Source: Macrotrachela quadricornifera (taxonomy: Eukaryota > Rotifera > Eurotatoria > Philodinida > Philodinidae). Taken from it: 64,000 nucleotides of DNA. The stretch is from NCBI GenBank assembly GCA_022393335.1, contig JAJEKB010020049.1:389036-453035 (forward strand). Direction: 5' to 3'. The notes below the pieces were generated by a model. The model saw only the letters and a program-made list of their open reading frames with translations, was not told the DNA's origin and did no database searches. Position 1 is the first letter of the stretch. Each line of letters opens with the position of its first letter. Below are positions 2,291 through 64,000 of the stretch, one piece after another. The position numbers were made by a program, and so were the translations under genes.

Positions 2291-2753
2291 ACAAAAATAA
2301 ATTAAGCTGAACCAAACTAATTGTTTAGACAATGTACAGAAGAAATATAGATATATATAAATAAAAGAAAAGCTGTCGTACACTTGTTTTATACATGAAG
2401 ACAATAAGTATTCGTTTTTTTCTTTTATGTTCCGCTCATTGTATATTCATATTTCTTTCCTATTCTCTTTCTTTTCGTTACATACTATTAATTCATATAT
2501 TTCACATTAAGAATTACACATAAATCAATTTCAATGAAAGAATTCATTGAAATGTTGCCTCTTTTTCTTCTTTTAAATAATTCTCAAATGATAAAAAAAA
2601 GATATATTACTAAAATATTATACCGATCATTCATGTAGAATAACGAACAACCAAATAAGTTTCTATTTATGATTTGTGAATAAACAGTTGATTTATCTTC
2701 TGTATCTTTTTATTATATTTAAATGAAAATTATTAAATTTATTAAATATTCTA

Positions 2754-5465
2754 TTAATCTGATAATTTAGAAAATCTTTTATTTGATTCAGGAAAATCTA
2801 CTCCTAGAACAAATCCAGAAAATAATCCAAATAATATTGATGGTATTATATATTCATATTTGCAAATAAAATTTAAACGAATATTATCATCAAATGGAAT
2901 CATACTAATAAAAATTCCAATGAATAAAAATCCTATTGACATCCATTGATAAATCTTTAATTTACACCAAATAATTGTTTGAATTTCACCTCGATATGCT
3001 TCTTCAACAAATCGACTAAGACCAATTAAAATAAAATAAAGACTAATTAATAAACATAATGCAACATTTGAATACCAAAGTCTCCATAGAATCATTCCAA
3101 TAATAATATTAGCGAGTATTGAATAACCTGCTGTTATATGAATATAAGTATTTTTTAATTGTGATAATGAACATACACGTGATTTTGGATTTGTAATTAA
3201 TATTCCAATAAATTTATTTGTTGATTTACCATGACAACATCCTTGTATAATACATCGTAAACGACCGATTGCTTGTATCCAAGGACTAGCTAAAGCATAT
3301 GCAGATAAAATTGAAATAATTGGAATATTAAATAACCATGAAGCAAGAATTGATCCAATAATACCACCTGTAATACAACCAAAATAACCAAATGGTCGAG
3401 ATAATCCAGAAGATTTTTCAATAAATTGTGCCCACATTGATGCAGTAATTAATGATAAACAACTTACGAGAAATAGAGCATAAACATGCTCAATAAGTGA
3501 ACATAAAATAAAAAAACCAATAAATCCACTTAGAAAACTATACAAACTATGATTGATAATACGAAATTTACCAAATCTATAAGCTGTCCATGAATTACCT
3601 AAATTTTCAAAATAATTTCTTATATAAATCCATAATATTTCTCTTTGAATACAAATAATAAATAATATAAAACCTGCTATAACATCAAGAATACTATGCA
3701 TTCCTGTTGTTATACAACTAATAGAAATAAATGTAGATAAAATATAAAATATAAATTTATATTTTAAAAATCTTAAAGAATAATAATAAGCTGATAAATA
3801 TGCCCATGATACATGAAATGATGGAAAAGCACCTGTTGGTCCATCAATATTTCGTTCATAAAATAATAATTTTCCTAAAATTGTTTTTGGAATAAATTCT
3901 CTTGGTATAGCAATAAATGGAAAAATAAATTGTAAATAAATACCAATACTAACATTTATTAAACCAGCAAAAATAAATGAACGAATTTGTTGTTTTGTTT
4001 GTAAAAAAAATGGTAAAAATATGATATATGGATAAGCAAAAAGATAAAATAATTCTGTTGATTCAATAACAGGAATATTATATTCAAATGTGAAATAAGT
4101 TGATATAGAATTTAATGGAATACCTATAAATATAATACATTGATAAAATATTAACCAAGGAATTAAAACTAAACAATAAATTGATATAATATCTTTTAAT
4201 TGAGATTTCATTTTAATATTTTCAGGTATAGTTATTAATGGTTTCCAAATATATTCAGGAAATCGTTTTTTTAAATCTTCATTTTCATATCCATATATAA
4301 GTGCAAACCATGATAATGTTAAAATAGGAGAAACTAACCAAAATCCACTTTTTGATTCATTATATACTGATAAACCAAAACTTAATAATGAACTTCCAAT
4401 ATATAATGGATGTGAAAATATTTTATATATACCTGTTGTAACTAATTTTGATGGTGGATAAGCATTCATTGGTAAACCATTACCTTTAAACCATAAATCT
4501 AACATTGATATAATCATTAAAATTATACCAAATAATATTAATAAAAAAGATCCAATAGAATTTATTGGTATAGGAAGATGAATATATTTTTCTGTTTGTT
4601 TTGACCAAAAAATTAATATTAATGGAAGTAAAATCATAAAAAATGAACCATAAAATATCTTTCCAAAAATATTTTTCTTTGGTTTCCAATTAACATTTTC
4701 ATGTATAGACCAACCTTGTGCAATTAAACAATTATTTTCATATAATTTACTCCAAGTTTGCCATTTACATTCATTTATATTAAAAAATCCTGATGGAAAT
4801 ATTTTTTTAATCCATGAAAATTTATCAAATACAGTTTTTATTAATGGTCCATTACGTAATGTATATTTTTCAGATAAAATTAAACGATAATTTTCAAATT
4901 CTAACATATTATCATTAATAATTCCATTAATATATTTGATTCCATTATAAAATATTAAAAATTTTTCTTCTTTACCTTCCCAACGAATCCAAATAATATA
5001 TTGATTTTCACATAAAAATCTTCCCCATCGTAATATATCAATTGGTATATGCCAAGGTTTTAATGTTAATGTTAATCTTTCAACATAACCAAAACCTTGA
5101 TATATTTTATCATCAATATTTATTTGTCCATATGCATTTGGCATAAAACATTCCCATAAAATATATCCATTTTTATTTTCATATAATTTTTCAATAATTA
5201 ATTCATTTTTTGATTCCCATTTACCGGATAATTTCATAGAATTAATATAAAAAATTTTATTATCTAATATTGGTGGTTTATAATTTAAAAATGTTGCTTT
5301 TGATATTAAATTACATTTTTCAAGAAATTGTAAAATATTTGTAAAACTAAGTTTTAAAAAGTTCCATTCAACTTCTCCTAAATAAATAATTGTTGTATCA
5401 CCAGTTTTTTCATCAATTATATCAGCATACCATTTATAAATATGAAAATTTTTTCTTACAGCCAT
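2754..5465 (-). CDS. Multidomain membrane protein: lipocalin-like / ICMT-PEMT methyltransferase / PAP2 phosphatase / Lgt-like transferase
   Basis: This is a single exon of about 900 codons. Residue numbers count from an alternative upstream ATG at 5504; the ATG at 5465 (residue 14) has the better context and is preferred. Residues 14-285 form a soluble, Trp-rich, probably beta-rich region resembling CrtC or tocopherol-cyclase style lipid-binding folds (tentative). Residues 285-430 carry membrane segments and the ICMT/PEMT signature (PPSKLVTTGIYKIFSHPLYIG, then E408 and the FPEY stretch), which implies SAM-dependent methylation of a lipid or prenyl substrate. Residues 480-620 look like a PAP2/inositol-phosphorylceramide-synthase type phosphatase, with PSFH at 561-564 and H603/D607. 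Residues 700-870 match prolipoprotein diacylglyceryl transferase: GRLRCIIQGCCHGK at 747-760 and RFVEEAYRGE at 831-840. About 15 or more membrane segments are expected. Lgt is a bacterial enzyme, so bacterial origin is likely (inference). Base composition matches the surrounding DNA, so the gene is not a very recent arrival or contamination. Confidence 0.85.
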   Translation of the reverse strand: MAVRKNFHIYKWYADIIDEKTGDTTIIYLGEVEWNFLKLSFTNILQFLEKCNLISKATFLNYKPPILDNKIFYINSMKLSGKWESKNELIIEKLYENKNGYILWECFMPNAYGQINIDDKIYQGFGYVERLTLTLKPWHIPIDILRWGRFLCENQYIIWIRWEGKEEKFLIFYNGIKYINGIINDNMLEFENYRLILSEKYTLRNGPLIKTVFDKFSWIKKIFPSGFFNINECKWQTWSKLYENNCLIAQGWSIHENVNWKPKKNIFGKIFYGSFFMILLPLILIFWSKQTEKYIHLPIPINSIGSFLLILFGIILMIISMLDLWFKGNGLPMNAYPPSKLVTTGIYKIFSHPLYIGSSLLSFGLSVYNESKSGFWLVSPILTLSWFALIYGYENEDLKKRFPEYIWKPLITIPENIKMKSQLKDIISIYCLVLIPWLIFYQCIIFIGIPLNSISTYFTFEYNIPVIESTELFYLFAYPYIIFLPFFLQTKQQIRSFIFAGLINVSIGIYLQFIFPFIAIPREFIPKTILGKLLFYERNIDGPTGAFPSFHVSWAYLSAYYYSLRFLKYKFIFYILSTFISISCITTGMHSILDVIAGFILFIICIQREILWIYIRNYFENLGNSWTAYRFGKFRIINHSLYSFLSGFIGFFILCSLIEHVYALFLVSCLSLITASMWAQFIEKSSGLSRPFGYFGCITGGIIGSILASWLFNIPIISILSAYALASPWIQAIGRLRCIIQGCCHGKSTNKFIGILITNPKSRVCSLSQLKNTYIHITAGYSILANIIIGMILWRLWYSNVALCLLISLYFILIGLSRFVEEAYRGEIQTIIWCKLKIYQWMSIGFLFIGIFISMIPFDDNIRLNFICKYEYIIPSILFGLFSGFVLGVDFPESNKRFSKLSD

Positions 5466-10757: not shown

Positions 10758-13051
10758 CATTATCATTCTTGTACGTATTAGCTATGATTTATCGAATTAA
10801 TTTAAGATTTTCAATAAAATGAAAAGGTTTTTTGAAATATTTGATTGAAGACAGATTGAAATGTATCTGTCGATCAGAATCAATATTGCCTCACACAGTA
10901 CCTATTGGTTCTGTCATAGTTAGTATAGCGTCAGTTTTCAATCAATATCTTAAAATTCATGAGTATTATGTCACTGAAGAAAACAAAAGCGCATATAATA
11001 GGATATTCTGTATGTAATTCGACCTTATTTCATTATCATCTTTATTTGACTATGTTCCACACTTTTTTTCTGTTTTTGAAGTCATATTCGGAACGAATGT
11101 GACAAAATGCATCGATCTATGTATATATCTCACTCATTGATTTAAGATTCCATTATTCTATAATTTTAGGTCATAAGGTACCTAAACTCCAGTTTTTTTA
11201 CTAGGTTTTTTTTTGAATATTTCGCCCAAAACAATTCAGAAGCTTGACTTTAAATCGCTTTTTTTCATCTAAGTCTAATTCAAAAAGCAATTCCGTATAT
11301 GACTGAGTATTTGTTTTTGGGCTTTGTAGTGGTGTAATTGCTATGTCATCTAATGCATCCTGCTACATGTGACTAACTCCAGATCATCGGTTAGATGGTA
11401 ATAGAATAGAAATATACTTCTACTGCATTTCTGTTTATTCATGAAAGATCATCAGCTATATATAGAATGTAATATTATCCATCTTTAGGAAAGATTCAAT
11501 AAGAGATTGAGATAAAATGATCAGAAAAATCCTACACATAAATAATATATTACTTGTCAAGGAAAATATGACATATATACTATTTACGAGAAAGGAAAAA
11601 CTCCAAGTATATATGTTTTACAGAACAGGAAAATACCCAAACATAAATGAGTTAATAGAAGAACGAAGAAAAATACTAGATAATTATATGTGTGATAGAA
11701 TAGCGAACAAATATCGTATATGTCAAATTCCACATCTTTTAAAACATGTAATTTTTTTTTACAAATGCTTTGATTGAAAGAATTGTTTTATCGGCAGAAA
11801 CATACATCGATATCTAAGACAGAAATGCAGGCACCAAAATATCAATAAAAGTCCAATTTTTTCCAGTTTGACGATCAAAAAAAAAAGCAAAATTTTCAAA
11901 AGCAAAGGGGGCGTAACACCTCGCGTCTCCTCCCCCTATTTGCGCTCCTATCTATCAATATTTATCCTTTCTTTATAAATCTGTGTTTTTTCCAGTATCA
12001 ATTAAATTATTGATTTATTCTTTACTGGTATTGTCATATTTTCAATACTTGTTTTTGGTTATTTATCTGAACTTTCATTCATTTATATCTCTACTTTTCT
12101 TTTACAATGAAATAAATGTAAATATATTGTAATAAGTTCATAATAGATTTTAGTTCGTATAATAATATAAATTCAAAATATTTGTTAAAATTGAAGAAGA
12201 ATAAAAACTAGTATCATCTCAAGAGTCATTTGAATGAAAGATAAAATTTGTTAATAATCTACCTCTGTAACATCAATATGACAATTGTAATCTTCAATTT
12301 GATCATTGAGTTCTATTATCTTTTACAGAAACATTCTTTTTTTTTATTATTAATTCAGTTCTATACATTTTTTTTTTGTTTTTCGTTAAAAATACATACT
12401 TCCAATCTACGCCATCTCTTTTTCTCTTTCTTTATTCATAGGTGAAAATAAATCATGCTTTTTATCGTTCTTCCTTTTCATTTATTCTGTAAAAGTACTA
12501 TGCATTTAATTGACGATGTATGTACGTATAGAGTAAAAAAATAATGTCCGTAACAAACTTGTTATTCAATATGTTTATTTTTTTTTACGGCTTATGATAC
12601 AGAACAGAAATAAAAGTAATTCAACGAAAATTATATAAATTAATAAAAAAACATCAAGTCTGTAATATTAAGTATTCAACAAGGAAAAATTATTCCAGAT
12701 GAAATATTTAAGTAAAATCTCAAAATAATTTGGAAAAATTTCTAAGTTGATATATATTGGAAAGAATATTTGTCATAATAAAATAACATAGTAGGTAATA
12801 TCTATCATTTACCTAAAACTGAAAGGAATAAATGACAGCATTTTACGCAAGAATATTCTCCAACAGAAAAGAAAGAAAAAAACACCTTGAGTAATTTTTT
12901 TTCTTTCCTTTCCTTTGCTTTACACTAGTAAGAATCAACAATGACGCACTATTACAACGAAAGGGTTTTTTCCTATGTCACTGCGAGCAAATATTCATAT
13001 GGTTACTATGCTATTATAGAAGTTTCCCTCACATGGAGAGTAATTTGATCA
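10758..13051. other. Intergenic region upstream of the IAP gene
   Basis: AT-rich DNA with no recognised gene. Short frames at 10832-11017, 11517-11777 and 12248-12445 show no domain and no splice logic that I could follow. Confidence 0.5.
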
Positions 13052-13060
13052 TATATAAAG
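13052..13060 (+). promoter_or_regulatory. Probable TATA box of the IAP gene
   Basis: TATATAAAG lies 58 bases upstream of the IAP start codon at 13118. The spacing fits a TATA box with a short 5' leader. It is a sequence match only; in AT-rich DNA such matches also arise by chance. Confidence 0.45.
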
Positions 13061-13117
13061 GTAAAAAATTGTCATTTATATTATCACTTACATCTTATCG
13101 ATATAGCTTTTAGTAAC

Positions 13118-14284
13118 ATGAATCAAATTGAAGAATTTACAAAACCATCTTATATACAAAACAGTTACTCTCTTATAAGTAAGATAAATGAACAAAAAAA
13201 GAATCTCATTCCATTAGAAGATGTTTCAAAGCCAGAAGTTAGTGCTGAAAAAAAGAAATGTTATTTCAATGAATCTGAATCAGTTCGACAAATTCGAATT
13301 CGTAGTCTTTCACATTGGCCATATTCAACACCAAATTGTGAATCAATGGCATCTGCTGGTTGGTTCTCGTGTAATTTACATGATCGTGTTATATGTATTT
13401 ATTGCAATACAATTTGTCAGGAATGGACAATCGATGATGATCCAACTGAAGTTCATATGAGACTTGCTCCACAATGTCCATTTGTTCTTTCAATGACATC
13501 AGTAAAATGTTCACCAAAAATAATTAATGATAATTTTAATGAAAAATTTGAACCACATCATCCAACAATGGCTCAAATAAATCGTCGAGAAGCAACATTT
13601 ACTAATACAAATTGGACAGAAAATTCACCAAGTGTTGATAGTCTTGTTCGTGCCGGTTTCTTTGCTACTGGTATTTCAAATACAGTAACATGTTTTTATT
13701 GTAATGGTTCATTACATAAATGGAGTTCAAATGATAATCCTATGATTGAACATGCTCGATGGTTTCCTAAGTGTACTTATGCAAAACATTTATGTGGAAA
13801 TAAATTATACGAAAAAATTCAAATGTCAAAAAAACCAAAATCAACAGAACAAAAATTTACTAAAGATGAACTTTCTCGTTTAGTTTCAGCAAGACTTGAT
13901 TTACCTGTTGTTGAACGTCTTCGTTCTCAATATCAAATATCAATAATTAAACGTTGTATTGAAGATCAATTAAGAATTAAAAATGATGATTTTACATCGG
14001 ATAGTGATTTAACAATGGCGTGTCTTATACTTAAAAAACAAATTGATATTATAAAAGGTTGTAAAGATAATTTAATAATTCCATCAAAAACTCAACAATC
14101 ACAAACTTTATCTCAAACATCAAAACAATCATTTGGTGAATGTCTTATTTGTCTTACTGAAGAAAAACAATTAGCATGTATGCCTTGTGGACATTTATGT
14201 GCATGTGTACCTTGTGGATATTCACTTCAATCATGTCCAGTTTGCAGAGAGAAAATTCAATGTTTTATGAGAATTAATTCTTAA
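13118..14284 (+). CDS. Inhibitor of apoptosis protein (BIR-BIR-UBA-RING)
   Basis: A 388-residue IAP family protein in one exon. BIR1 spans about residues 57-124, with zinc ligands C93, C96, H113 and C120. BIR2 spans about 156-226, with C192, C195, H212 and C219 and the GFF core at 180-182. Residues about 247-315 resemble the UBA-like region of BIRC2/3/XIAP. The C-terminal RING (342-377) has the IAP spacing: C342, C345, C357, H359, C363, C366, C373, C376. By family, BIR domains bind caspases or IAP-binding motifs, and the RING acts as a ubiquitin E3 ligase in the cytoplasm. All zinc ligands are intact, so the protein is probably functional. It lacks the third BIR of vertebrate cIAPs and is closer in layout to insect DIAP proteins. 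A TATA-like motif lies upstream and AATAAA follows the stop. Confidence 0.93.
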   Translation: MNQIEEFTKPSYIQNSYSLISKINEQKKNLIPLEDVSKPEVSAEKKKCYFNESESVRQIRIRSLSHWPYSTPNCESMASAGWFSCNLHDRVICIYCNTICQEWTIDDDPTEVHMRLAPQCPFVLSMTSVKCSPKIINDNFNEKFEPHHPTMAQINRREATFTNTNWTENSPSVDSLVRAGFFATGISNTVTCFYCNGSLHKWSSNDNPMIEHARWFPKCTYAKHLCGNKLYEKIQMSKKPKSTEQKFTKDELSRLVSARLDLPVVERLRSQYQISIIKRCIEDQLRIKNDDFTSDSDLTMACLILKKQIDIIKGCKDNLIIPSKTQQSQTLSQTSKQSFGECLICLTEEKQLACMPCGHLCACVPCGYSLQSCPVCREKIQCFMRINS

Positions 14285-29694: not shown

Positions 29695-32600
29695 ATGTTC
29701 ATCATCATAAGTTTTCTGCTCTTGAGCAGGTTCTTAGGATAACAGTTATGACTCCTTATAGTTTTCTCCATTCCATCCTATCGCTAGCAAGCCTTTTCAG
29801 ATATGCATATCCCTTTTTCTCTGTTAAATCGTCTAGCATTTTCATCCTTTTTCTTCTCCTCTTTCTTTCACCATTTACTGTTCCTTCGATCATGTCTTTT
29901 AATAAATTATCTCCTCTCAATACATGGCCTATCCAATTTCTTTTCCTTATTCTTATTCTCTCTAGTAAGGTCCTCGCCTCTCCTATTCTTTCTAAAACTT
30001 TTTCATTGCTCACTTTATCCATCCAACTTATCTTTAACATTCTTCTCCATATCCACATTTCGAAACACTCGAGCTTTTTCTTTTCGTACTCCCTCAATGT
30101 CCAGGTTTCAGCTCCATATAATAGTACACTCCAAACAAAGCATTTTACTAATCTCTTTCTTAATTTTAGATTTAAAGATCCACAGAAAGCTCTCTTCATT
30201 TTTGTAAAAGCTTCTTTTGCAATTCCTATCCTTGTTCTCACATCTTTCTCGCATCTCCAATCCTCTGTTAGAAAGCTACCTAAATATTTAAAACTACTAA
30301 CTTTTTCTATCTTTATATCACCTAAATGTAACACGATATCTTCCTCATTTCCTACACTCATTACCTTAGTTTTCTTTGCATTAATCTTCATTCCATATGC
30401 TTTACATGCTTTTTCTAACATTTTAATTGATTTTCCTAAACTCTCTTGATCTTCTGCTAATACTGCCATATCATCGGCAAACCTTACACAGCTAACCTTT
30501 GTTCCACCAATCTTCACACCTTTCATTTTCATTTCTATTTCTTTTATCATTTCCTCTAGATAGATGTTAAATAGTGTAGGGGATAAACAACACCCTTGTC
30601 TCACTCCTCTACCAAGCTCTACCTTTTTAGATTCTCTGTTACCTATCCTAACTATCACTCTCTGATCTTTATATAAATTTCTAATCAGCCTTCTTTCTTT
30701 CCATTCTATTCCTCTATTTTTTAATATTTCAAGTAGTTTATCCCAATTTACTCTATCGAATGCTTTCTCTAAATCTATAAAGCAAATCACGAAACTTTTA
30801 CATCTTTCTGTTAATCTCTCTCCTATTACTCTCATTAGTCCTATTGCATCCCTAGTACCTCTTCCTTTTCTAAAACCAAATTGCTCTTCTCCTAAATACA
30901 TGTCTAGTCTACCTTGCAATCGACGACTTATTACTCTTAATAACACTTTTGCTGCATGTGAAATTAAACTAATTGTCCTAAAATCCTCACATTTACTAGC
31001 TCCTGCTTTCTTTTCTATGGGTATTAACATGGTTTCTATAAATTCTTTGGGCCACAAACCAGTCTCATAAATTTCTCTACACACATCCACTAAAGCTTTC
31101 TTTCCTTCTTCTTTCATACTTTTGAGAAACTCTATGGGTACACCATCTACTCCTACTGCTTTGTTACTTTTCATTTCTTTAAGAGACAGTTCTATCTCGC
31201 TTTCTAATATTGAAAACCCTATCTGTTCACTTTCTACGTCGTTTTTGTCCTCTAATGTACCTCCTCTGAAGCATCCTTCGTTCGGATACAGTTCTCTTAC
31301 GTATTCTTCCCATCTATTAATGATGTCATTCTCTTCTATCAACTTCTTTCCATCTCTTGATTCTACACATCTCACGCTTCCACCTTTTCTTTTCAACCAG
31401 ACTAGTTCTTTTACCTTTCCATACATCAGATCATATCTCCCATGCTTTTCTAATTCCTCTATTATTTCACACTCGTTTTCTAACCATTCTTGTCTCGCCT
31501 TTTCTGTCTCTCTCCTCAACTCATTATTTAACTTTCTATATTTTATCCTACCTACCTCACTATTGACGTTTTTCCATTTTCTTCTTTCATCCATCTTTTC
31601 TATCATTTTTTCACTAACCCAAGGTTTCCTAGCTTTTACATTTTCTTTAAATCCTACTACTTCTTTTGCTGATTCTACTATCACATTCTTCAGTCTATTC
31701 CACTTCTCATCGACATCCTTATCTCTACTCCATCTAGCTTCCTCTATCTTTTCTTCCATAATGTTTCCTAGATCATTCTTGACAACTTTTAGTTTTTCTA
31801 AGTCCCATCTCTTCCTTACTAAAGCTCTACTAATCTTTTTTAACCTGAGCTCCATCTCTACGATAACTAAATTGTGGTCCGAACCTATATCTGCTCCTGG
31901 ATGTGCATATGCTTTCTTTATACTGTTCCTGAACCTTTCTTGTATCATAATATAATCAATCTGATACCTAGCTCTATCCCCAGGAGCCTTCCAAGTATAC
32001 CTTCTTCTCAAATGATTTTTAAACCATGTATTAGTAACTATTAGTTTATTTTCTCTACAAAAGTTAACTAGCATATCTCCTCTATCATTCCTAACTCCAT
32101 ATCCAAAGCTGCCTACGATCTTATCTTCTTTTCCTTCACCTACGACTGCATTCATATCTCCCATCAATGCGATACAACTATCCTTCTCTTCTTTTCTTAT
32201 CAACTCTTCTATTTGTGAATATATTTCTTCTACTTCTTCATCTGTATGTGCACTGGTTGGCATATATACCTGAATAAGTACTACATCTTTTGGCTCTGCT
32301 CTCAACCTTACCATCATAAGCCTATCACTTATTAAATCTATACTCTTAACGCAATTTTTCACTCTTTTTCCTAAAACTATTGCTATTCCATTCTGACCCT
32401 TTCTTTTTCCCGAGAAAATCATCTTGATTTCGCCGCTCGTGATCTCACCGCTACCTTCAAACCTAACTTCACATAACCCAACTATATCTAACTTTTTCCT
32501 TTCTATCTCTCTCTTCAAATTTTCAAGCTAACCGGCCTGTATCATTGTTCGAACGTTCCATGTACCGATTATCAGCTTGTTTCCTTTGATTTGGGGATTT

Positions 32601-32950: not shown

Positions 32951-33044
32951 AAACAATTCTTCTTCCAGATCAAACACCAGGACTAAGATGTTATGGAATT
33001 GATTTTTCCTGTATCAAAAATTTAGAAAAAAAAACTTTTAGTTT

Positions 33045-33525
33045 CTAGCTAAGTTACATTATAATATGATGTGTGATGAGAAATAATTTTAAAATGATGA
33101 GAAGTCTGGAAAAAAAAGAAAATTTTATTTTCTACGTGTTTAGTATTTTAATATCGTGTGAGATGTGAAATCAATTTAAAATAATGAAACGTCTGGAAAA
33201 AATAAACTTTTATTTTCTATGTACTTAACATTATGATGCCATGTAGGATGAAAAATAATTTTAAAATGATGAAATATCTAGAAAAAAATAAGCTTTTATT
33301 TTCTTGGAAAGTTACATTGTAATATCATGTGTGATAAGAAATAGTTTTAAAATGATGAAAAGTCTGGAAAAAAAAGAAAATTTTATTTTCTACGTGTTTA
33401 ACATTGTAATATCATGTGTGATGAAAAATAATTTTAAAATGATGAAAAGTCTGGGAAAAAAGAAAATTTTATTTTCTACATGTTTATCATTATAATATTA
33501 TGTGAGATGTGAAATCACTTAAAAT
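33045..33525. repeat. 86-bp tandem repeat (minisatellite), about 5.5 copies
   Basis: The word TATTTTCT(A) recurs at about 33126, 33211, 33298, 33384 and 33470, a period of 85-87 bp. Each unit also carries GATGAAAAATAATTTTAAAATG-like (shown in part) and AGTCTGGAAAAAA words. Copies 4 and 5 are nearly identical. It sits directly beyond the 5' end of the LINE. Confidence 0.85.
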
Positions 33526-33529
33526 TAAA

Positions 33530-34444
33530 AAAAGTCGAAGCAGGTGATCATCTTGTAATAGGTTGGGTTTCGAGGAAGTGTTAAACATTTAACATATTAT
33601 TGTTGAGCCACTTGAGATTAGAAAGTTTTAAGAATAAATTATTTTAAAGTGTTTGTGGATTTTAGATTTAAAATCGATTTAGAATCAGAATAAAATTGTT
33701 TAGATCGTGGCTGTCTTCCTGGATCCGACCGGAATATATCGTTTGGTCATGGAGTTATCGGAAATCATTGCAGCCTGTGTGGATTTTCAGTGGAATACAA
33801 GTGATCTGATTTCAGCTTGTTACCGTTTATGAATGGAGCTGATGGGAAGTTATAGAAAGATGCAGGAATATTGTTTTTATTTCAAATGCAGGGTTCCGCT
33901 TATGTTTTCCGTTGATGTTCGTTGTATTCTTTCGAGAAAGTGCTATGTAGAAATTTTATGTAGCTCGTTTTCGGTAATTTTCCATGGTGATTCCGGCGAT
34001 CGGATTTCTCAGGATTATTTGGAGTATGGTATGTGATTTCCTCCCTGGAATGCTGTTTCTTTTTCGATAGATTTTACGGTGGGTTCAGGGGAAGGGAAAT
34101 GAGTGGGAACTAGATGGAATGAGTTGGAAAATACCCCGCTTCCACTGGATTCCCTTCGGTTCTGGAGGGTGGAAAGTTCCAACTGGGTGAAGATACGTAA
34201 AAGACAGTCGGATGATTCCATGCCGGTTCTACTATCGTTACACTAAACTTCTTCAAATTACGCCAAACTTTCAGGGCTTGTAGAAATTTTTACACTGATC
34301 AATTTCACTACAAAAAAGTTAAGACTTGCACATATAATAACGGAGAAAAAATGTGATGATTTTTACTAGAAAATGATGTTTTTTTCCGTGACACGACACT
34401 TCCGTGCAGTGTATCTGAGTGAGGGTGAGGGAGAATACATTCTA
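33530..34444. other. Non-coding stretch between minisatellite and foldback
   Basis: Mixed-composition DNA; short frames (for example 33833-34036) show no domain. GATTCC/GGAAT-type words link it to the GC-richer repeat family nearby. Confidence 0.4.
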
Positions 34445-59871: not shown

Positions 59872-61989
59872 TTAGGTCTTGTCGGAATTGTCTTGATCCT
59901 TCAGGGATCTCTGAAGAGCAATGGAAATCTGTTCATCTTCTGTTAAACTGTTCAGCCACTGTTGCTGATATAGTTCTCTCAAGGTAAAATGTTGATCAGG
60001 CGCATTTTGACAAATGTCTAAGAGGAATCTGGAAAGACTTCTTTCTGCTTCGGTTGGATCACCTTGCATTGTTGGCCCATATGGATGATGATCAATTAGT
60101 CGTCGCCGTTCAAATGCTGCCACTGATTCATTGTATAAGTAAGCATATGTGGATTGTAGACTGGTGTGGAGTGTCTGCGGCTCTAAATATTGATGCATGA
60201 CATTTTGATAATTTTGAAAATCTTGCATATTACACTCTGCGCCTTGTGGAGATAATGAACTGGAAGGTGAAATGTGTTTGTTCATAAATGTGAGAATAAC
60301 ACCAATACTGAATATGTCTTCCGCAAAACTAACAGCACTTCCAATGTTTACAGTTTCGCCCCAAATCGGAGATAGAGGAGGAGTGTGAGTTAAAAATATT
60401 TCTCGAAATTTTTTCCAATTTTCATAATCTCCATCCATTCCGCGTAATGTATTGAGAATTGTTAGCGTTTCACTAATATCCTTTTCATCATCATCGATTA
60501 CCAACTGTGAGTCTAAACTGATCCAATTTCTTTTAAATTGTTGATAATCACGCAAAGCCTTAATGATATCAGTAGCTTTTAGTTGACTTAAAAAATAGGC
60601 AATATTCTGATTATATATATTTCTATAGAACTTTTGACCGGTAGCGGAAAACATTTGTATATCGTGGATTTCATGCACATCCACTTTTAATAAAATCTCT
60701 TCAGCTTTCTTTAACGATTCAGGAGAATATGGTTCAAGTATGTTGAGATCGGGGATGATGTAGTGTGAACAGTGGCGTCTTTTTAGTAGATCAATAGCAT
60801 ATTGAAGCCATTTTTTTGCCAACATCTCTGTATTGTCTCCACTAAAATCCATCGTTTCACACATCCACAATACCGTGGTTTTTATAAAATATGATGGTAT
60901 TACATTCTGTTTCGATACCTTTTCTTCTTTCAAAAACTTGTAATAGATACTTCGTGCGATTCCATTCAAGATTTGTTCATTAACGGAACGCTGTTGGGCA
61001 AGAAGTAATTCAATGGCAGAAAACGAATAACGAAATTCGAGTTCTCGATCGCATTGTGGTGTTTTTGTCGACCATTTTGGAATGACATGCATCGATGTTT
61101 TATTTTTTACTATTAAATTGTAGATTTTTGGACGATTGGTTTCGATTCGTTTTAGAAATGGTTGAATATCCTTCGGCCAAAATTTCAATTGAAGCGATGG
61201 AACCAGATCAACATCGACAGGAGCACAACTCTGAAAATAATCTGCCATATCAGTAATATTCGTGGGGTTTCCAACGTGAGAGTATCTATCATAGAAATCG
61301 AGGAGAGCTTTAATGCGAACTAGAGTCACTTTTGGTAAACTATGGTCATAGGCTGGACCTGCTAAAGTAAAGAGATCACGAAATGTTTGTTCATTAATAT
61401 TTTGTTCGTCAAACATTGATGCATTATTCGATGTTCGATACAATGGCAAAGCATATTGAGATATGGATTGACAAACCCCTTTACTGAATAAAACATAGTT
61501 TTTTCGAATTGTATCGAAATTCAGTTGATTGCGTTGTTGCTCTACGTGTACAAGGGCATCATGAAATTGTTTACTAATATCAATCGTTTGATACGTCATA
61601 GTTTGCGTTGCAGCTGCACCAGATGCGTCATCTGGCGTTTGTCCTGCTCGATGCACATGAGCTAGAGGAGCACCCATTGTTGTTTCGCTTGAACAATGTT
61701 GATTTTTTAGTTGGAATCCATTAACACAACGAAAGCCATTTGCGTCATTTGCAGTGGCGAATACTGTACTACCTGTGGGTTCTACTCCATTATCAAATCT
61801 GATTCGAACAAATCCTGGAACACCTGTTTGAATGAGATTTTCTGCAGATTTGACGATTCCACAATGAATAAGAATGTCAATATCTTGAATGTTTTGATTC
61901 GCCATATGACGTGCATAGGTTTGACCTTCTGCAGAACTTCCTGATAGAAGGGAAAGACTTCCACTGGTTTCCGTTGTCCCCGTTGCCAT
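59872..61989 (-). CDS. Mab-21 family / cGAS-like nucleotidyltransferase with C-terminal ubiquitin-interacting motif
   Basis: A single-exon 705-residue protein. The C-terminal Mab-21 domain signature is clear: VDLVPSLQLKFWPKDI (260-275), FRYSFSAIELLL (319-330), NVIPSYFIKTTVLWMCE (362-378) and HCSHYIIPDLNIL (406-418). In the N-terminal lobe, GSSAEG (17-22) and DID (36-38) resemble the Gly-Ser and DxD metal-binding motifs of cGAS-like enzymes, and D261 would be the third acidic residue. By family, active members make cyclic dinucleotides from ATP/GTP after sensing nucleic acid; many Mab-21 proteins are inactive, so activity here is an inference. The gap between DID and D261 (about 220 residues) is much longer than in cGAS and holds a Thr/Ala-rich stretch. 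Residues 684-698 (EDEQISIALQRSLKD) match the UIM consensus, including A691 and S695, suggesting ubiquitin binding. Confidence 0.8.
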   Translation of the reverse strand: MATGTTETSGSLSLLSGSSAEGQTYARHMANQNIQDIDILIHCGIVKSAENLIQTGVPGFVRIRFDNGVEPTGSTVFATANDANGFRCVNGFQLKNQHCSSETTMGAPLAHVHRAGQTPDDASGAAATQTMTYQTIDISKQFHDALVHVEQQRNQLNFDTIRKNYVLFSKGVCQSISQYALPLYRTSNNASMFDEQNINEQTFRDLFTLAGPAYDHSLPKVTLVRIKALLDFYDRYSHVGNPTNITDMADYFQSCAPVDVDLVPSLQLKFWPKDIQPFLKRIETNRPKIYNLIVKNKTSMHVIPKWSTKTPQCDRELEFRYSFSAIELLLAQQRSVNEQILNGIARSIYYKFLKEEKVSKQNVIPSYFIKTTVLWMCETMDFSGDNTEMLAKKWLQYAIDLLKRRHCSHYIIPDLNILEPYSPESLKKAEEILLKVDVHEIHDIQMFSATGQKFYRNIYNQNIAYFLSQLKATDIIKALRDYQQFKRNWISLDSQLVIDDDEKDISETLTILNTLRGMDGDYENWKKFREIFLTHTPPLSPIWGETVNIGSAVSFAEDIFSIGVILTFMNKHISPSSSLSPQGAECNMQDFQNYQNVMHQYLEPQTLHTSLQSTYAYLYNESVAAFERRRLIDHHPYGPTMQGDPTEAERSLSRFLLDICQNAPDQHFTLRELYQQQWLNSLTEDEQISIALQRSLKDQDNSDKT

Positions 61990-64000
61990 GACTACTTCTC
62001 TTTTTCTTTCTCAATCTTGATTTTTGAACGACATCTTAAATGATGATACAAAGAGGACGCATCTAAAACACGAAGAGATCTAGAATATAAACAACCACAA
62101 TGGTAATTCAGATTTATTTCCAATAACGGTAATGCTGCAAATAATCTTACAAGTGATTTTTTTTTAGATATGTGACAAGAATTCAGACAAAACCTTTATG
62201 AAACCATGCATCTTGACCATAAATACAGAATTATTAGACACAAAGGTTTCTGTTGTAAATTTTTTATCAAAATAGTTTATCTTCGATAGTCACAATCAGA
62301 GGGAACCGAAATTTTCAGCACGCGAATGTCCATCATGAGAATCTTAGCGTGGGTGATGGTATGGCTGTAGGTACCGGTAAGTGTAGATGAGGTAATAAAT
62401 GTAAATGTGGATGTGGATGTCGTTGTGGGTGACGCCATAGACGGGAATAAGGTTTTTGTGCGGTTTGGGTAGCAATCTGAATATAAATCTGACTGTGGAT
62501 ATGAACGAAAATGAGTCAGAAATACACTTCACTGACCTATACATTGAGAAAGGTATCCAATAGCAGGCCAACAAGCATTCAGCACCTCCGCCACCCTGTT
62601 ACCCACACCAAGAGTCTCATGGTGTGTCTTTTAATGGTAGACGTTCGCGTACTGAAAATTCATCAATCCTAATCAGCGATCTCTTTACTTGACTCTCTTC
62701 TATGCTCTCTCTCTCTGGCTGAAATGAATGTGAAACAAAAGCAAATCAGTTGCAAGACAGAATACAAAAATGAAGAATAAAAAACAAGAATGTGTATGAA
62801 AGCAGGAACACGAATAACAAAAAGAGATGTAAAAAGAGGGAGCCATGCGCGAATGACAGTCAGTGCATAGCAATACGTTTTTTTGTGTAAGAAATTTTCT
62901 TTGTTTCTAGATGCATTCATCATGGCTGAACAATGAAATATCCAGCTCAGTTGTGATTCTGTCATGTTCCATTCAATCTCATGTATCGAGTTAAACAAAG
63001 CCTGAAACGATGTAAATGTATAGCCTATTGATTCACAGTTATAGAAATTTTACTAAATTTTTATCTTATGGGGCAAGATGGCGAAAAAATTTAATTAAAG
63101 AGTTTTAACATGGAATTTTGTCTACAGATGAATCTAGTATTTATCAGAATTTGGTAGAATTTTCATCCAAAATAAATCTTTTTTTTCTCAAGCTATTGTG
63201 TTGTTCAATAAATTTGATTTTTGTGATTTGCCCGTAAAAAACAGCTATTTTTTGTGAAAATTTAATATCTCGAGAAAAAAAACATTGGTTTTTCCTCAAA
63301 CTTCTATGAAATTTTTCATCTGTGGACAAAATTTTATGTTGTAATTATTTATAGGTTATACATCTAAACTTTTTTAGGCTTTTCTTATTTCAGTATACTC
63401 AATAGAATGAAATATGATAGAGCCAAAACGGAGCTCGATGCTTTTCTCGTTAGTTATGATGAATATATCTAGAAACGCAAAGAGTTCATTTAAAAAAACA
63501 AGCATATTGCTACGTACTGGTTGTCAGAAATAAAGTATTTTGATTACAAATTTAAAAAAATGTCCCTAGTTCCTAATGACTTCATAAACTTATATGAGCT
63601 CTAATTAAATTCATATAACATACGAATGGACTATACTTTGTTGGAAAGAAAAAGTTGTGTCAACATTAACTATATGGTAGCAATGATTTTGTTTTTGAAA
63701 AAAGAAAGTAAATATGCCGAACAACTCGCTTTTATTGCCTATTTTACGTTTGAAGCAAACTACGAAGAAAGCCACGATACGAAAGGAAGAAAAAAATGAA
63801 GTATCGAAAATAACTTGATTTCACTTATTTTTATTCTTCTCGGCTGTGCCACAGACTTTTTTTCTGTTTCTGTAGATAACATGCTTCTTGTAAATTCAAC
63901 AAATTGATGAGATTGTTGAATGAGCTAGAGTGTACTCAGGCTGGCCAGATCTTCTGATTTTTCAGAAAATTTCTGATTTTGAATATTTTTTCTGATGGCT
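61990..64000. other. Upstream region of the cGAS-like gene and window end
   Basis: No gene is seen in the last 2 kb. A small foldback is present: ATTTTGTCTACAGATGAA near 63114 pairs with the complement of the stretch at 63316-63341. Degenerate GTGGATGTG words occur near 62380-62440. Confidence 0.45.

Follow-up and report, generated by a model that had tools for sequence, protein, structure and literature searches.

The described proteins closest to the gene analyzed here are the double calycin proteins (CrtC, AttH (NE1406), 25-phosphosteroid lyase, kievitone hydratase and the Fsa2-CghA-Phm7 pericyclases), the PEMT and ICMT membrane methyltransferases, the inositol phosphorylceramide synthase Aur1 of the PAP2 superfamily, and the prolipoprotein diacylglyceryl transferase Lgt. 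Bdelloid rotifers are known for foreign genes, and the gene in question, located in a 64,000-nt stretch of Macrotrachela quadricornifera DNA (contig JAJEKB010020049.1 of assembly GCA_022393335.1, positions 389,036 to 453,035; hereafter the window), represents this known kind of event unusually, as a bacterial module of two genes present as one gene. We consider it probable that an old bacterial gene pair lives in bdelloids as this one gene, with a likely role in lipid tailoring; for the origin and anatomy of the fusion taken by themselves, our confidence is high. Catalytic residues are reported for two of the related proteins. CrtC requires His239, Trp241, Tyr266 and Asp268 (PMC4717167). In the E. 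coli Lgt structure, R143 and R239 are described as sitting at the C3-O bond of the diacylglyceryl group and E243 and R246 as members of the same network; the mutants R143A/E/K, Y26A/F/Q, E151A/Q and H103A/N/Q/R/Y are reported as inactive (PMC4728403).

A single frame with four domains

The open reading frame (ORF) analysis of the window places the gene on the minus strand from 5465 to 2754, with an ATG start, 903 codons and a stop. The chance of 904 stop-free codons is ~10^-31.9 (independent bases, window composition), which excludes a chance origin; the gene is real and intact in sequence. Its G+C content at third codon positions (GC3) is 0.065, inside the range (0.047-0.307) that ten further open frames of the window span, and thus fits an old gain. 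The features of the gene are as follows.

2754..5465, minus strand: whole gene, 903-aa four-domain fusion protein (uninterrupted ORF, homologues, structure model)
4674..5465, minus strand: N domain, residues 1-264, CrtC/AttH-type double lipocalin-like (calycin), with the CrtC catalytic Trp, Tyr and acid positions at W104, Y127 and E129
4662..4700, minus strand: fusion junction, residues 256-268, end of the bacterial upstream gene and start of the downstream gene
4260..4550, minus strand: PEMT (phospholipid methyltransferase-type) domain, residues 306-402, by Pfam, with H352, P353, Y355 and E394 conserved
3642..4232, minus strand: PAP2_3 / Aur1-like domain, residues 412-608, with PSFH (H551) and HSxxD (H590, D594) motifs
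2883..3611, minus strand: Lgt-like domain, residues 619-861
3228..3266, minus strand: Lgt signature segment, residues 734-746 (GRLRCIIQGCCHG), altered from E. coli GRLGNFINGELWG
2738..2743, minus strand: AATAAA, a possible polyadenylation signal 10 nt past the stop codon (weak evidence in AT-rich DNA)

Pfam matches above cut-off were obtained for PEMT (residues 306-402, 36.6 bits, cut-off 25), PAP2_3 (476-606, 42.8 bits, cut-off 27), PAP2 (535-611, 28.0 bits, cut-off 27.2) and LGT (698-854, 58.9 bits, cut-off 24.9), so that the 903-codon frame contains the three membrane-enzyme modules that the initial annotation had proposed for a single exon. Its ICMT/PEMT label stands in the PEMT half only: the ICMT model scores 13.7 bits against a cut-off of 24, and we therefore assign the methyltransferase domain to PEMT by Pfam. 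The domain shares with the PEMT and ICMT enzymes an HPxY motif and a downstream Glu, and differs from them in its ICMT score and in a distinctive GxGLPMNAYPP segment. Residues 1-269 matched no Pfam family (E 10), and for the window protein NCBIfam gave nothing above threshold, the best of the weaker matches being to Lgt.

An AlphaFold2 model of the full-length protein (mean pLDDT 93.2, pTM 0.84, 106-row alignment) starts with a beta-rich N domain and continues as a long helical region. Compared with the PDB, residues 1-264 of the model match the CrtC/AttH fold, residues 412-608 Aur1 and residues 619-861 E. coli Lgt; the best 50 fold-match rows include no solved methyltransferase structure, which does not exclude one. 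Searches of the PDB by sequence gave no match with the single sequence and, with the N-domain profile, one match judged to be chance. The PAP2 part belongs to its superfamily by Pfam domain, PSxH and HxxxD motifs, and fold. What had been annotated as a PAP2 phosphatase is, by fold match, more exactly Aur1-like, and differs from Aur1 (PDB 9vj4, 9ivc) in being bacterial in origin and fused.

A bacterial gene pair joined in rotifers

We searched 5.8 billion proteins and found 866 homologues among the 7999 best candidates; the counts that follow concern the best 120 of the 866. Twenty-two of these (P0002-P0023) are of the 900-aa type, or its fragments or variant gene models, and those with names are Rotaria or Adineta. 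Full-length homologues (903-904 aa, 69-77% identity) carry the names Rotaria or Adineta vaga, with the A. vaga copy sitting on an 18.1-Mb contig, so the gene is not an assembly chimera. The remaining 98 are bacterial-type proteins of 635-674 aa, except P0097 (804 aa), and the organisms named among them are Hymenobacter, Bernardetiaceae, Bacteroidales and Bacteroidota. All three Pfam labels (PEMT, PAP2, LGT) are present in 94/98; P0075 and P0092 lack PEMT, and P0097 and P0119 lack PAP2. The three-module fusion, annotated initially as a feature of an animal genome, is indeed present there, but it is itself bacterial and was presumably acquired as such, which rules out a fusion of the three domains made in an animal. 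Widespread vertical descent in eukaryotes was looked for and not seen, the only named eukaryotes among these 120 of 866 homologues being Rotaria and Adineta.

A scan of 84,980 species genomes yielded 251 pattern matches and, from these, 225 relatives, of which the best 80 loci were analyzed; they span 11 phyla. By profile search, a CrtC-like gene for the N domain lies just upstream of the PEMT-PAP2-LGT gene (the core), on the same strand and as a separate ORF, in 77/80 loci, and in the same ORF in none. Two of the three loci without it (L051, L056) have the core at a contig end, and the third (L048) is a genuine exception at the threshold used; when no profile was applied, clustering recovered the N gene in 71/80 loci. 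In the bacterial pair, the upstream gene encodes a soluble protein of CrtC/AttH fold and the downstream gene a polytopic PEMT-PAP2-LGT protein; the two genes are adjacent and often overlap. In modules such as those of Hymenobacter (L018) and Minicystis (L019), all four domains occur in the same order as in the rotifer gene, the difference being two genes instead of one. The earlier description of a soluble Trp-rich N-terminal domain was therefore incomplete: this domain is the second bacterial gene, normally the upstream neighbour.

A UbiA-type cluster is found directly upstream in 6/80 loci and is the only cluster so placed in more than two. These loci, in which a UbiA-type prenyltransferase gene directly precedes the pair, belong to Acidobacteriota (L038, L041, L044, L045, L055 and L061; identified by Pfam in L045 only). 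Two further clusters, both generic, are shared by 8 loci (ABC-ATPase-like by eye) and 6 loci (sensor-like by eye), where their positions vary. Among 10 flanking genes scanned, one was UbiA and the other nine had no common enzyme theme (two with a Por secretion tail, two with no match). In Paenimyroides tangerinum (L060/L064) and Neomarinimicrobiota NAT38 (L062/L066), the pair and the same neighbours appear on two contigs per genome, which is a duplication or an assembly repeat.

The junction between the two former genes is at the same place, within one residue, in 23/23 rotifer-type proteins including that of the window. The core tree and the residue counts given below rest on 187 rows, 20 rotifer and 167 bacterial (the 98 bacterial proteins above and 69 core proteins of suitable length), and not on all 225 relatives; P0003 and P0004 (near-copies of P0002) and P0023 (a fragment) were left out. 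All 20 rotifer-type rows fall together in a single clade (SH-aLRT 100), itself part of a group (99) that also contains P0024-P0027, Bernardetiaceae and Hymenobacter. The N tree has 205 rows, with P0020 and P0021 also omitted, as they were from a small core tree; its 18 rotifer-type rows again make up a single clade (99), to which Hymenobacter and Bernardetiaceae are joined (95). The trees are midpoint-rooted, and the nesting of the rotifer clade among bacteria assumes a root outside the clade. With the rotifer clade nested among bacteria and the gene integrated in rotifer chromosomes, the gene qualifies as horizontally acquired in bdelloids. A Bacteroidota-type pair would thus have entered the bdelloid lineage, and every rotifer copy seen now has the two frames fused at a single site.

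A search for fused N domains (N region, full-size proteins) retrieved 22 among 622 candidates, comprising 21 rotifer-type proteins and P0242; it missed P0097 and is not exhaustive. P0242 (874 aa), which has a long branch, groups as the sister of the rotifer rows (97). P0097 is probably an independent fusion, because it groups with Minicystis, where the two genes are separate.

Several observations weigh against the arrival of a linked pair that acts as a unit. The count covers 80 of the 225 relatives, chosen by rank against a query containing the N domain, so the 77/80 linkage may be overstated; no genome neighbourhood turned up for P0024-P0027, the closest bacterial core proteins. A quick core tree of a matched 44-row set groups the rotifers with L018, L022, L025 and L029 (89), and a careful N tree of the same set puts L022 beside the rotifers with moderate support (94/74), does not resolve L018, and places L029 and L025 elsewhere, weakly. 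The fused gene may already have been present in the donor. Finally, the PAP2 core is lost or degenerate in the fused relatives P0097 and P0242, in which PEMT and LGT are kept, so that the PAP2 step is separable and the four steps form no obligatory chain. On balance, the N and core trees favor co-transfer of the pair without proving it.

Bacterial contamination or an assembly artefact would explain the bacterial homology of the gene. We rule it out for practical purposes, as the window's open frames carry animal-type BIR/RING, ankyrin, NHL and GPCR domains and a non-long-terminal-repeat (non-LTR) retrotransposon, the GC3 of the gene falls among those of its neighbours, full-length copies are named Rotaria and Adineta (including the one on the 18.1-Mb A. 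vaga contig), and the core tree contains a rotifer-type clade. The same evidence bears out the initial proposal of an old horizontal gain in a rotifer host. A scan of viral contigs found 27 stretches matching the pattern, none of which tblastn confirmed as a relative, and a virus-borne origin was rejected on that basis. A plasmid search with the Lgt-like segment gave no match.

Residues of the Lgt-like half and the N domain

The expected residues of the first two membrane modules are widely conserved. PEMT residue E394 is present in 20/20 rotifer and 167/167 bacterial rows, and PAP2 residues H551, H590 and D594 in 20/20 rotifer rows each and in 161, 162 and 163 of the 167 bacterial rows. Within the Lgt-like half, R735, R737, C738, G742, C743, C744, H745, G746, R763, R818, E822 and R825 are invariant over all 187 rows, and R735, R818, E822 and R825 correspond to R143, R239, E243 and R246 of E. 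coli Lgt (PDB 5azb/5azc), so that this set is kept along with the fold and an HP(S/T)xxY-type segment. Other E. coli Lgt positions are replaced. Position 103 is F in 19/20 rotifer rows (1 gap) and Y (156/167) or F (11/167) in bacterial rows; positions 146 and 151 are Cys in 187/187 rows; and position 26 is His in 15/20 rotifer and 163/167 bacterial rows, with Tyr in 2/20 and 4/167. Standard Lgt proteins (n = 6), in contrast, keep Y26, N146 and E151 in 6/6 and H103 in 5/6. The signature reads GRxRCxxQGCCHG, not GRLGNFINGELWG, and the domain is fused to others.

Were this half a genuine prolipoprotein diacylglyceryl transferase, cysteine proteins of rotifers would be lipidated in the bacterial style. 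The protein has the LGT Pfam domain and the Lgt fold, but it lacks the Y26, H103, E151 and N146 set, with no row retaining H103, N146 or E151 and few retaining Y26, and E. coli mutants at Y26, H103 and E151 are reported as inactive (PMC4728403). Equivalog scores agree with this: P0001 scores 42.5 against 334 for NF000778, with no TIGR00544 row at E 1, and the bacterial relatives L018 and L019 reach 42.1 and 29.2 bits with TIGR00544 (lgt), whose cut-off is 118.9. We judge a lipoprotein transferase in an animal to be very unlikely, and the function initially assigned, moving diacylglycerol onto lipoproteins, should not be carried over to a protein that departs at residues E. coli Lgt cannot lose. 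From these residues, we conclude that the donor-lipid site has been retained and the lipoprotein-specific parts have not.

The N family matches a profile of six CrtC sequences with a score of 43.2 (P 1.5e-5, probability 79.6%, 64 columns), compared to a maximum of 22.3 for column-shuffled controls (n = 30); a single CrtC sequence in place of the profile gives a weak match (probability 7 and 43% at two settings). PF07143 (CrtC) is absent among the 11 Pfam families matched at E 1 by any of the 62 N-domain members. In an alignment of these 62 rows (the window and 61 of the 65 bacterial N proteins listed), the CrtC Trp241 and Tyr266 positions (W104, Y127) are Trp and Tyr in 62/62, the Asp268 position (E129) is Glu in 61/62 and Asp in one, and the His239 position is I, V or L in 59/62. 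R149 (61/62) and E232, K234 and E256 (62/62) are also conserved. With the double calycin fold, the Trp and Tyr kept, Glu as the acid and His replaced, the N domain is CrtC-like yet falls outside strict CrtC membership. It differs from the CrtC group further in its length (~265 aa), its lack of a Pfam match and its pairing with a membrane partner.

The N domain may be a carrier or an enzyme. As a carrier it would, like yeast Svf1, pass a hydrophobic lipid on to the two membrane halves, Aur1-like and Lgt-like, a reading that we find plausible while leaning somewhat against it. We take PF08622 to include Svf1. The N domain has the same double-lipocalin fold class, and the NE1406 paper links PF09410, PF07143 (CrtC) and PF08622, the last of which it calls a fungal survival family (PMC2954199). 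Svf1 is reported to carry ceramide and to have two lipocalin domains (PMC10583516), and Aur1 binds ceramide (9vj4 is an Aur1-ceramide complex). The conservation of W104, Y127 and E129 at CrtC catalytic positions, however, exceeds the needs of a passive pocket, and that of R149, E232, K234 and E256 likewise counts against a mere carrier.

As an enzyme, the domain could belong to an isoprenoid or sterol pathway, in which it would hydrate or eliminate at an isoprenoid chain; PAP2 would take off a (pyro)phosphate, methylation would fall to the ICMT/PEMT-like part and transfer of the chain to the Lgt-like part. The CrtC profile match, the fold matches to 25-phosphosteroid lyase and kievitone hydratase, and the UbiA prenyltransferase cluster upstream in the six Acidobacteriota loci (Pfam, member scanned) are consistent with such a pathway. 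We nevertheless regard it as unlikely, given that the UbiA-type gene occurs in those 6/80 loci only and its scanned member is under every NCBIfam cut-off, that CrtC His239 is replaced, that the single-CrtC match is weak, and that the fold matches equally include Diels-Alderases with other substrates.

A candidate lipid-tailoring enzyme

From sequence we infer the function of the joined N domain and PEMT-PAP2-LGT gene: the fusion protein quite likely acts on lipids, and most likely would be a self-contained lipid-tailoring enzyme of an internal membrane. It is reasonable to infer stepwise lipid modification in one polypeptide, as the initial annotation had done, and we offer a detailed scheme tentatively, both in its steps and in their order. 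The Lgt-like half would grip a phospholipid by its diacylglyceryl end in the R143/R239-type site and activate the C3-O bond (step a), and the diacylglyceryl (or similar lipid) group would pass to an acceptor other than a lipoprotein cysteine (step b). The Aur1-like half would then remove or exchange the phosphate-linked head group (step c), and the PEMT-type half would methylate the product from SAM (step d). At the membrane face, the CrtC-like domain may bind a hydrophobic chain (possibly isoprenoid), either to present it or to add or remove a group at a double bond (step e).

Elsewhere in the window, a 923-codon minus-strand frame (29759-32527) with endonuclease and reverse transcriptase domains is possibly an intact non-LTR retrotransposon ORF. 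GC skew is strong around it (-0.54 at 30-32 kb), and it is adjoined by a tandem array at 33016-33536 with an 87-bp unit (258-bp higher-order unit). A 411-codon plus-strand frame (13049-14281) has two BIR stretches and a RING finger, as in an inhibitor-of-apoptosis-like gene. A 712-codon minus-strand frame (59875-62010) matches the Mab-21 C-terminal domain above cut-off and the Mab-21 nucleotidyltransferase domain just under its cut-off.

No description of this protein or lipid-enzyme module was found among the papers listed by searches of open-access PMC, and the main text of Boschetti et al. 2012 (PMC3499245) has zero occurrences of lipid, methyltransferase, phosphatase, fusion, operon or Bacteroid. 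Compared to single-gene gains, a pair that seems to have arrived together and become a single four-domain polypeptide, with catalytic-type residues kept in 20 rotifer rows, is a cleaner case. It points to an uncharacterized bacterial lipid module in at least 11 phyla, with its two genes adjacent in nearly all loci analyzed, and the rotifer fusion is evidence that the two bacterial products work together. From the Lgt-like half comes a prediction that is concrete, an Lgt-fold enzyme other than the lipoprotein enzyme. Taken furthest, and this we hold as a speculative possibility, the Lgt-like domain would found a second catalytic class within the Lgt fold, transferring the diacylglycerol of a phospholipid to an acceptor that is not a protein, with the invariant Cys/Cys-Cys-His cluster replacing the lipoprotein-specific residues, and bdelloids would make a bacterial-type membrane lipid found in no other animal by means of a whole bacterial operon turned into one gene. 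The gene suggests that bdelloids took over a ready-made bacterial membrane-lipid pathway.
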